64,000 nucleotides of DNA from Syntrophomonas sp. DTU018 (GTDB lineage Bacteria; Bacillota; Syntrophomonadia; Syntrophomonadales; Syntrophomonadaceae), in NCBI GenBank assembly GCA_001513155.1, contig LFSR01000051.1:1-64000 (forward strand), in the 5' to 3' direction. Below the pieces are notes generated by a model, which made no database searches, was not told the origin of the DNA, and was given only the letters and a program-made list of their open reading frames with translations. Shown here in pieces: positions 25,852 to 28,704 of the stretch; position 1 is the first letter of the stretch; the number at the start of each line of letters is the position of its first letter. Position numbers and translations under genes: made by a program.

Positions 25852-25872
25852 TTTAGATACGGAACAAATCTA

Positions 25873-25980
25873 TAGACTCCGATTCAAACTGCCTAAGGCT
25901 GCGGCTAGGGCGGTTGGAACGCAGGGTGTACCGGGAAACTGGTGCGCCTCCCATTTGGAAAGGAGTTTAGTGCATGACTG
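25873..25980 (+). promoter_or_regulatory. Moco (molybdenum cofactor) riboswitch
   Basis: A structured leader before moaA. The closing stem pairs ACTCC (25876-25880) with GGAGT (25962-25966). The core contains GTACCGGGAAACTGGTGCGC and CCTCCCATTTGGAAAGGAG, which I recognise as the conserved heart of the Moco RNA motif, together with an AGGCTGCGGCTAGGGC arm. It lies in the 312-bp gap between the divergent NfeD gene and the Moco genes and presumably senses molybdenum or tungsten cofactor. Confidence 0.85.
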
Positions 25981-25982
25981 AG

Positions 25983-26010
25983 ATACCCTTTTCCAGGGTA
26001 TTTATTTATT
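25983..26010 (+). terminator. Possible riboswitch terminator
   Basis: TACCCT/AGGGTA stem (7 bp including the outer A-T pair, 25983-25989 with 25995-26001), loop TTTCC, then TTATTTATT. It sits right after the aptamer and before a GGGGAGG ribosome binding site, so it could be the expression platform. The short stem makes this tentative. Confidence 0.5.
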
Positions 26011-26024
26011 GGGGAGGTTGACCT

Positions 26025-26201
26025 ATGCCAGATAATGCTCAGATCCTAGAAAAACTGCGTAAATTGGCACCGGAAGGCAGGATATCCTGTACCGATGCCC
26101 GCAAGCTGGCAGAAGAGCTGAAAGTTCATCCCAGCGTAGTTGGGAAATTGTGCGATGAGGCAAAAATTAAAATAACAGGTTGTGAACTGGGGTGTTTTTA
26201 G
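26025..26201 (+). CDS. Conserved-looking 58-residue protein leading the Moco operon
   Basis: An ORF of 58 codons starts at ATG after GGGGAGG and begins MPDNAQILEKLRKLAPEG. It continues through a short helical region, ISCTDARKLAEELKVHPSVV, and ends in ITGCELGCF. The middle part looks like a small winged-helix or helix-turn-helix (ARKLAEELKVHPSVVGKLCD). Four cysteines (residues 22, 44, 53 and 57) include a C-terminal CELGC pair that could bind metal. It lies between the Moco riboswitch and moaA, so cofactor-dependent control should act on it first. I recall similar small proteins near moaA in other Clostridia, but no function is known to me. Confidence 0.75.
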   Translation: MPDNAQILEKLRKLAPEGRISCTDARKLAEELKVHPSVVGKLCDEAKIKITGCELGCF

Positions 26202-26241: not shown

Positions 26242-27219
26242 ATGGACTCCTTTGGACGCCACATAAATTATATGCGTATTTCCGTAACTGATCGCTGCAA
26301 TTTGCGCTGCCGCTACTGCATGCCCGAAGATGGAGTCCAGGACCTGGGACACGGAAAAATACTGAGCCTGGAAGACATAGCCCGGTTGACCCGCATTGGT
26401 GCTCAGATAGGAATCCGCAAAGTGCGCTTGACCGGAGGAGAGCCGCTGGTGCGCAAGAATATTACCGGACTCATTCAATGTATAGCTGATATTCCTGAAA
26501 TTGATGATATTGCCTTAACTACCAACGGGATTCTCTTTCCCGCGATGGCTGAAGATTTAAAGGCAGCAGGATTAAAACGGGTTAACATCAGTATGGATAC
26601 CCTTCAGGAAGAGCGCTTTCTTTATATAACCCGCCGGGGAGGATTAAATCTGGTGTGGGAGGCGGTCTTTAAGGCTTTGGAGTTGGACATGCATCCGGTG
26701 AAAATAAATGTGGTAGTGATTCGCGGTTTTAATGATGATGAGATAGGTGATTTTGTCCGTTTGGCTTATATTTATCCCTTGCACATCCGTTTCATTGAGT
26801 ATATGCCGGTGGGAGATTTGCAGTTTTGGGATCCGGACCGTATGGTGAGCAGTGCGGAGATCCTAAATAAGCTGCAAGCAGATTATGAATTGACCCCGGA
26901 AAAAATCGTAGCAGGCAACGGTCCCGCCCGTTATTATCACATTGCCGGGGGAGCTGGCTCCATAGGTTTTATCAGTCCTATGAGCCACCAGTTCTGCTCG
27001 GAATGTAACCGGATACGTTTAACCGCCGATGGCAAGCTTAGAGGCTGCCTTTATGCCAAGCAGGAAGTTGACCTGAAAGCAGCCCTGGAACAAGGGGCAT
27101 CCGATGAGGAACTGCAGGAGTTATTCTTTGCAGCTATTAAAGCTAAGCCTGCTCACCATGATATGGGTTCTGGTTGGGGTGAGCAAAACTTCCGCAAAAT
27201 GTATCAAATCGGAGGTTAA
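26242..27219 (+). CDS. moaA: GTP 3',8-cyclase MoaA
   Basis: Radical-SAM enzyme that with MoaC turns GTP into cyclic pyranopterin monophosphate, the first step of molybdopterin synthesis. ATG 26242 follows a purine-rich GGGGAAGGGGGG site and gives 325 residues; upstream in-frame codons overlap the 58-residue gene. The SAM cluster is Cys19, Cys23 and Cys26 (CNLRCRYC). The second cluster is in [20 protein letters not shown] near the C-terminus. The chain ends in GG, as required for MoaA activity. Confidence 0.95.
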
Positions 27220-27221
27220 TC

Positions 27222-27704
27222 ATGGATTTTACTCATATCAATGATGAGGGCCGTGCCCGTATGGTTGATGTTTCCGGAAAAGCTGACACGGAACGGGTAG
27301 CTGAAGCCCGGGCCGCGGTGCGCATGCAGCCGGAGACCCTGGAAGCAATTCGCAGCGGGGGAGTGAAAAAAGGAGATGTACTAGCCGTTGCCCAGGTGGC
27401 AGGTATTATGGCCGCCAAGCAGACCTCCAGCCTGATACCCATGTGCCATCCCCTCATGCTGACCTCCGTGGACATCAGCTTTAGTTTTGATACAGATAAT
27501 AATAGGATAGTAATTCATTCCCAGGTCAAAACTACCGGGAAAACGGGAGTGGAAATGGAAGCCATGACCGCTGCTGCTGTAGCGGCCTTGACTATATACG
27601 ATATGGCCAAGGCTATTGACCGGTGGATGGTAATCGAAGAGGTGCTCCTGTTGGAAAAGAGCGGCGGCAAGAGCGGGCATGTCAGGCGCTCCGCATCAAA
27701 ATAA
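27222..27704 (+). CDS. moaC: Cyclic pyranopterin monophosphate synthase MoaC
   Basis: Second enzyme of molybdopterin synthesis, converting the MoaA product to cPMP. 160 residues. [16 protein letters not shown] and [20 protein letters not shown] are the signature regions. It starts 2 bp after moaA. Confidence 0.95.
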
Positions 27705-27778
27705 TTGCCTAGCATGGAAACCTACTGTCTGCCGCGAGTTAGTCAAGAGGTATTTGCAAGCAATGAGGAGAGATGCTT

Positions 27779-28216
27779 ATGGAACGAGGAGTATTGTACT
27801 CCATATGCATCAGCCCGGAAAGAGGACAGTTGAAGAAGCAAGTCTCCGAAGCAAAAGTAATAACCAACTATGGTATTGAGAATGACGGTCATGCCGGTGA
27901 TTGGGATCGGCAGGTGACCTGCTTGAACTATGCCAGCGTGCAGAAGATAAACCAGGAAAAGGGCTTAAATGCCGGGCCGGGTGATTTTGCTGAAAACCTG
28001 CTTATCCAAGGTATCGATTTAGTGAAAGTGGGTGTGGGGGGACAGTTACGCATAGGAAATGATGTAATTCTAAAAGTCTCCCAGATCGGCAAAGAAGATC
28101 ATCCCAGTGTAGTTACTCGTACTCTGGGGGTAACCCTGCTGCCTTATGAGGGATTGTTTTGTCGCGTAGTGCAGGGCGGAACCATACGCCCCGGGGATAT
28201 AGTTGAGGTGATTTGA
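27779..28216 (+). CDS. MOSC-domain protein
   Basis: 145 residues forming a single MOSC beta-barrel. ATG 27779, 8 bases after GAGGAG, is better placed than ATG 27773. Conserved segments are GIENDGHAGDWDRQVTCLN, with the Cys that could carry sulfur, and PGDFAENLLIQGIDL. MOSC domains bind molybdopterin or transfer sulfur to the cofactor. Its stop overlaps the start of the MogA-like gene. Confidence 0.88.
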   Translation: MERGVLYSICISPERGQLKKQVSEAKVITNYGIENDGHAGDWDRQVTCLNYASVQKINQEKGLNAGPGDFAENLLIQGIDLVKVGVGGQLRIGNDVILKVSQIGKEDHPSVVTRTLGVTLLPYEGLFCRVVQGGTIRPGDIVEVI

Positions 28217-28704
28217 TGTATAAAGTCGGCATATTGATACTGAGCGACAAGGGCTTCCGGGGTGAGCGGGAAGATTTGAGCGGGGAGCAGATTCGCCAAT
28301 CCCTGGGACCTAACTATAGTGTGGAATACTACCAGATAATACCTGATGAAAAGGAACTGATCATTGAGCAGCTTAAACATGCCTGTGACCAGCTGGGGCT
28401 GGATCTGTTGCTGACTTCCGGAGGAACGGGATTTTCCCTGCGGGATGTCACTCCAGAGGCTACCAAAGCAGTGATTGAAAAAGAAGTACCGGGCATACCG
28501 GAAGCTATCCGCTATTATGGGCTGCAAAAGACTCCCAAGGCCATGCTGTCCCGGGGCATAGCCGGTATCAGGGGAAAGACTCTGATTATAAATTTGCCGG
28601 GCAGTGTCAAAGGAGTCAGGGAATCATTGGAAGCGATCATGCCGGCTTTAGACCACGGGCTGGATATATTGATTGGCTCCGCTGCGGAATGCGGGCAGAT
28701 TTGA
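28216..28704 (+). CDS. mog: Molybdopterin adenylyltransferase, MogA/MoaB family
   Basis: 162 residues of the MogA/MoaB fold, which adenylylates molybdopterin before molybdate insertion. TSGGTGFSLRDVTPEAT (about 74-90) is the nucleotide-binding motif, and NLPGSVKGVRESLEAIMPAL is the C-terminal signature. The ATG overlaps the MOSC stop. MoeA, MoaE and MoaD are not in this window. Confidence 0.9.
   Translation: MYKVGILILSDKGFRGEREDLSGEQIRQSLGPNYSVEYYQIIPDEKELIIEQLKHACDQLGLDLLLTSGGTGFSLRDVTPEATKAVIEKEVPGIPEAIRYYGLQKTPKAMLSRGIAGIRGKTLIINLPGSVKGVRESLEAIMPALDHGLDILIGSAAECGQI

Follow-up and report, generated by a model that had tools for sequence, protein, structure and literature searches.

The short reading frame between a Moco riboswitch and moaA in Syntrophomonas sp. 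DTU018 is a real gene under strong protein-level purifying selection, and its 58-residue product represents a new protein family ("CxLGCF") in a known pathway; this novelty refers to the libraries and open papers searched, and an earlier notice elsewhere is possible. With a probability of roughly 0.62, the protein acts as an accessory factor that assists MoeA and a MobB-like NTPase when the tungsten/molybdenum cofactor matures; the biochemical step is one that we infer. The window, i.e., the whole stretch of 64,000 nucleotides that was analysed, contains the following features around this gene:

25865–25981, + strand: Moco/Tuco riboswitch aptamer (RF01055) without stem P3 (cmscan, 80 bits, E = 9.4e-18)
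25982–26009, + strand: terminator-like hairpin GAUACCCU/AGGGUAUU (hairpin 25982–26002) plus a U-rich stretch (RNA folding)
26011–26017, + strand: Shine-Dalgarno sequence GGGGAGG, 7 nt 5' of the ATG (from sequence)
26025–26201, + strand: small-protein gene, 58 aa, ATG start, TAG stop
26088–26090, + strand: Cys22 codon, invariant across 104 members and retained in fusions
26181–26198, + strand: codons of the C-terminal CELGCF, in which C53, L55, G56, C57 and F58 are invariant in stand-alone members
26242–27219, + strand: moaA, ATG at 26242 (translation; homologues lie beside the small gene at the majority of related loci)
27222–27704, + strand: moaC (translation and related loci)
27773–28216, + strand: MOSC-domain protein gene (translation; Pfam PF03473 on the L020 homologue)
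28216–28704, + strand: mogA-like gene, the last of the Moco operon (translation and related loci)

A preliminary description of this DNA had placed a 58-residue frame with a good ribosome binding site between the riboswitch and moaA, as the first gene of the operon, and had pointed to a distinctive CELGCF ending; all of these elements are present. The protein (MPDNAQILEKLRKLAPEGRISCTDARKLAEELKVHPSVVGKLCDEAKIKITGCELGCF) contains four cysteines (C22, C43, C53, and C57) and closes in GCELGCF, and its gene is followed by moaA, moaC, the MOSC gene, the mogA-like gene, and then groES. The RF01055 match covers model positions 1–135 with the P3 columns deleted and, at 80 bits compared with a gathering threshold of 36, belongs to the riboswitch family. 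Regulski et al. (2008, PMC2408646) link P3-lacking RF01055 RNAs to the tungsten cofactor (Tuco) and name Syntrophomonas with at least 15 copies of the Moco/Tuco riboswitch, and in the searched passages no mention of a small protein 3' of the riboswitch was found. The hairpin occurs in both the minimum-free-energy and centroid structures, its short stretch by itself having a z of only −0.74, and together with the U-rich stretch it is likely the expression platform of the riboswitch. The hairpin and the U-rich run both lie 3' of the aptamer and 5' of the Shine-Dalgarno sequence, which suggests that the riboswitch controls transcription. Across 40 scanned loci of the small gene, an RF01055-family riboswitch was detected in 27; the gene is thus also kept at loci where the scan found no such RNA.

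The evidence that the frame is a gene comes from its relatives. A protein search found them in 46 of 61 related genomes, at identities down to about 40%, and their frames are free of internal stops with one weak exception; conservation of the frame, on which the preliminary description had made its proposal depend, is therefore borne out in these 46 genomes. Between the window gene and its nearest relative, changes affect 18 of 39.5 synonymous sites but 5 of 134.5 non-synonymous ones, which gives a dN/dS of 0.054, and the ratio lies between 0.054 and 0.13 among the nearest relatives in which synonymous change is unsaturated. The comparison of synonymous and non-synonymous change that had been recommended thus reveals constraint at the protein level. 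A profile search detected relatives in 114 of 300 genomes sampled across the window's phylum, and the domain was also found in 43 of 98 Nitrospirota genomes. The search for LGCF-ending relatives elsewhere, likewise recommended, was successful: a back-translation of the C-terminal motif matched species genomes at 449 places, 427 of which encode relatives, with a bias toward members that have CELGCF or CQLGCF ends. Two divergent matches without the LGCF tail (L142 and L143) were left out of the member counts. An apparent "Actinobacteria" relative (L128) was rejected as a sign of wider spread, as it belongs to the window's own phylum group; the corresponding phylum search gave matches at places identical to those in the window-phylum sample.

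Searches for a known family were negative within their respective scopes. No family at or above its curated cut-off was found for the stand-alone protein in Pfam-A or NCBIfam, and single-sequence searches of Pfam, NCBIfam, the PDB, and viral contigs returned nothing real, the NifU match (E = 0.065) being at chance level. A profile search of the PDB gave no relative (best match YjeQ, E = 0.96), and Foldseek comparison of the AlphaFold2 model with the PDB gave no significant fold match (best E = 1.2). DUF7645 matched 19 of 43 members (best E = 1.5e-5, in one member) but not the window protein, and these matches, being weak, were not taken as membership. Literature searches, covering mainly open papers, found no description of the family.

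Among 104 distinct stand-alone members, C22, C53, L55, G56, C57, and F58 are invariant, and K/R19, A25, R/H26, A29, G40, K49, and I50 are each conserved in more than 90%. Although the motif with which named genomes were scanned includes C57, this residue is invariant in members found without the motif as well. Position 43 is Cys in 74 members and Ala in 26, i.e., in a quarter, and the chain terminates at F58 in 93 of the 104 members and one residue further in the remaining ones. The AlphaFold2 model (mean pLDDT 88) has helices at 4–14, 22–31, and 36–45 and strands at 19–21 and 49–51 (order H-E-H-H-E), so that the protein is predicted with confidence to be a helix-turn-helix (HTH)-like mini-domain, in agreement with the HTH-like middle noticed beforehand. 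The predicted strands would bring C22 and C53 near each other.

The family is found mainly beside genes of the Mo/W pathway. A moaA, moeA, or MOSC gene starts at most 400 nt downstream on the same strand in 85 of the 104 distinct members (moeA in 45, moaA in 39, MOSC in 1; median gap 33 nt), and L011 and L015, outside these 85, also have a moaA that was missed by automatic ORF picking. An association with moaA only had been expected; however, moeA was found next to the small gene at least as often. When the seven nearest genes are considered, 93 of the 104 members have a Mo/W-pathway gene among them, or 95 with the addition of two contig-edge or mis-called cases, and such a neighbour is missing for a few members (L119, L123, and L145). 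Gene names read from translations, except where Pfam was run, show fdhD and mobB followed by tupA-type tungstate ABC transporter genes in L118, the order modE-tupB-moaA-small gene-moeA-moeA-PBP in L189, fdhD next to the small gene in L106, L107, L117, and L130, and formate dehydrogenase next to it in L090.

Other surroundings were also observed. The member in L123 (4171–4344) overlaps Mrp/MinD-type ATPase genes and adjoins a NifX-like gene, not Moco genes. In the Nitrospirota loci L204, L205, L206, L209, L211, L215, L217, and L222, the gene precedes hemX/ccsA-hemA-hemC; these hem-linked genes encode the MobB-like fusion described below, or a stand-alone protein in L222, and their ends often touch or overlap. 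This conserved heme-operon link is a non-Moco context for which the Mo/W reading offers no explanation.

The domain also occurs as a part of larger proteins. In 27 of 38 Halanaerobia-type genomes (a label assigned from gene content), it is the C-terminal part of a roughly 200-aa protein with a MobB-like P-loop domain at the N-terminus, and 16 Nitrospirota loci examined encode MobB-like fusions as well, with full CELGCF or CDLGCF ends. The MobB-like part matches PF03205 with E values from 1.5e-8 to 1.5e-5 and TIGR00176 with an E value of 5e-10, a match that scores below the cut-off of that family. Several Halanaerobia-type loci were examined, and in L137, L139, and L140 the fusion gene lies directly 5' of moeA; in L124, the MobB-like half and the small-domain half are separate, overlapping genes. 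In the tree, a long branch with full support divides the fusion NTPases from canonical MobB, while the Halanaerobia-type and Nitrospirota NTPases stand apart with moderate support under midpoint rooting only, which is compatible with one or two fusion origins. Most fusions retain the basic residue 49, C22, C53, and LG, and C57 is lost, usually to Leu, in most of the Halanaerobia-type ones.

Rarer architectures were seen in addition. A DUF1847 protein (PF08901, E = 3e-60) in L184 (799–1668) carries the CxLGCF domain at its C-terminus, a fusion that may connect DUF1847 to Mo/W metabolism. In L031 (3530–4267) and L185 (1501–2265), the N-terminal fusion partner is an unrecognised domain of about 190 aa, and neither gene lies in an obvious Moco neighbourhood; in L141 (3502–3888), the CxLGCF domain is tandemly duplicated within one protein (CALGLF ... 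CALGCFG) encoded directly 5' of moeA.

Carriers of the gene almost always have MoeA, and tungsten AOR enzymes are strongly enriched among them. In the 300-genome sample of the window's phylum, 112 of the 114 carriers have MoeA (p = 3.5e-20) and 107 have AOR-family (tungsten) enzymes (p = 5e-25), the odds ratio for AOR being 14.7 among MoeA-positive genomes. Because shared ancestry inflates genome-level p-values, a test collapsed to families is fairer; restricted to MoeA-positive ones, it gave AOR ratios of 41:2 versus 18:21 (p = 7.6e-7). The gene is not generally needed, since 99 of 211 MoeA-positive genomes of this phylum lack it. In Nitrospirota, MoeA is present in all 43 carriers, and an open frame for MoeA that is 600 aa or longer occurs in 43 of 43 carriers versus 6 of 55 non-carriers (p = 2e-21). 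This long frame is probably the MoeA plus PBP-like form, an architecture confirmed by Pfam in L049, and the near-perfect phyletic match points to the form of at least 600 aa as the partner; the MoeA–PBP link is not general, as many genomes of the window's phylum have PBP-like domains without the gene. AOR enzymes occur in 24 of 43 Nitrospirota carriers versus 3 of 55 non-carriers, and the 19 carriers without AOR indicate that the gene is not tungsten-exclusive.

What could such a protein do? In Methylorubrum, MoeA1–MobB is a tungsten-specific insertion platform associated with a moeA1-mobB-tupBCA cluster (PMC13197769). Given this platform, and since the CxLGCF domain is fused to or located beside relatives of MoeA and MobB, a Mo/W accessory factor is the best supported reading; because the family adjoins or is fused to W/Mo cofactor genes, its members probably help to load or handle the cofactor. 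Genomic linkage to the pathway and co-occurrence with it are as expected for an accessory factor of the Mo/W cofactor, the exception being the hem context in Nitrospirota. Three roles had been offered in the preliminary description, and the MobB-like fusions and the vicinity of moeA, moaA, and tupA appear to favour metal or cofactor handling most, whereas a regulator is unlikely and a leader was rejected.

Judging from conservation and predicted secondary structure, a cluster of K/R19, C22, R26, K49, and C53 may bind tungstate/molybdate or a metal-pterin intermediate, and the predicted strands 19–21 and 49–51 would position this basic/thiol cluster. The conserved LGCF tail might dock into a partner, as MoaD inserts its tail into partners. 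In the window, the P3-lacking riboswitch would shut off the protein together with MoaA/MoaC when the tungsten cofactor accumulates. A narrower proposal, which we make tentatively, is a dedicated small tungsten-assembly protein that passes tungstate or tungsten-pterin to MoeA with the MobB-like NTPase, fused or free according to lineage.

Such a function would be of interest, as little is understood of how MoeA selects and inserts the metal or of the role of MobB, and still less of tungsten-cofactor assembly in strict anaerobes. A small protein present in about 40% of the genomes sampled from the window's phylum and from Nitrospirota, encoded by a gene short enough for annotation to skip, is a concrete candidate for the missing part, with MoeA and the MobB-like NTPase as candidate partners and K19, C22, R26, K49, C53, and the tail as candidate residues. 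If true, a dedicated tungsten-handling protein would help to explain how anaerobes come to select tungsten rather than molybdenum.

The main rival to a Mo/W accessory factor is a partner domain of MobB-like or other NTPases of the SIMIBI class whose task would extend beyond Mo/W, to heme/cytochrome, Fe-S, or metal delivery. The conserved hemX-hemA-hemC context of the Nitrospirota fusion, the Mrp/NifX-type cluster around the L123 member, and the variety of fusion partners (MobB-like, DUF1847, and the unrecognised domain in L031/L185) are what this reading would account for; however, adjacency to moaA or moeA is nearly exclusive in the window's phylum, and co-occurrence with MoeA is strict in Nitrospirota too (43/43), which leaves it a small though appreciable chance.

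A minimal DNA-binding regulator, in which the HTH-like domain would sit on Mo/W operators and the cysteines would sense metal, cofactor, or redox state, seems unlikely to us. Its attraction lies in the HTH-like H-E-H-H-E order of the AlphaFold2 model, in the identity of the best, non-significant Foldseek matches (homeodomains, DeoR, and the metal regulator MntR), and in scattered weak HTH matches below cut-off, e.g., GntR in L141 (E = 2.8e-4). Yet neither a known HTH family nor a solved HTH fold was recovered, with no Pfam HTH above cut-off and nothing better than E = 1.2 in Foldseek; moreover, the would-be recognition helix (36–45, the third helix) is net acidic, the net charge of whole members averages 0, the domain is the C-terminal part of its fusions with NTPases and with a DUF1847 protein, and many of the operons are already under riboswitch control.

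It is still less probable that the protein is a sulfur carrier or sulfurtransferase subunit that serves molybdopterin/FdhD sulfuration through its CxxxC tail: although C53 and C57 are invariant near a fixed C-terminus and some members abut fdhD (L106, L107, and L117), a GG tail of the MoaD/ThiS kind is missing, most Halanaerobia-type fusions lose C57 while keeping C22/C53, and fdhD is a rare neighbour in comparison with moaA/moeA. Finally, the small size, the first place 3' of the riboswitch, and the median 33 nt to the next gene might suggest that the ORF encodes a leader peptide or serves translational coupling in the riboswitch operon, its product having no function as a protein. This reading is refuted by the fusions of the domain to other proteins and by strong amino-acid constraint despite saturated synonymous change, and it also disagrees with the loci without a detected riboswitch and with the position of the ORF downstream of the terminator-like hairpin.

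Several known systems resemble the Mo/W accessory factor proposed here. FeoC and the DNA-binding domains of ModE and MntR are small HTH/winged-helix proteins of metal operons. The window family shares with them a small HTH-like scaffold in metal operons, and its Cys content recalls FeoC; it differs in having an acidic third helix, no wing hairpin, and no Pfam or significant structural match. The sulfur carriers MoaD and ThiS are also small and pathway-encoded, with a conserved fixed C-terminus that, by analogy, may insert into partners. However, they have a Gly-Gly end and a beta-grasp fold, whereas the window family has an LGCF end (93 of 104 members, the rest with one additional residue), a mostly helical HTH-like fold of predicted order H-E-H-H-E, and invariant cysteines.

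MobB (PF03205/TIGR00176), the adaptor NTPase of molybdopterin-guanine dinucleotide biosynthesis, is related by association: where the small domain is fused, its partner is usually a MobB-like P-loop domain; a MobB-like gene overlaps the small gene in L124; and MobB and MoeA1 act together in assembling the tungsten cofactor (PMC13197769). In contrast, the 58-aa protein itself lacks the Walker A P-loop, which is present only in the fused partners, and these partner NTPases form a distinct subfamily below the TIGR00176 cut-off. As for the Moco/Tuco riboswitch operons, the window operon likewise stands under a P3-lacking RF01055 RNA, as in other tungsten users (PMC2408646).
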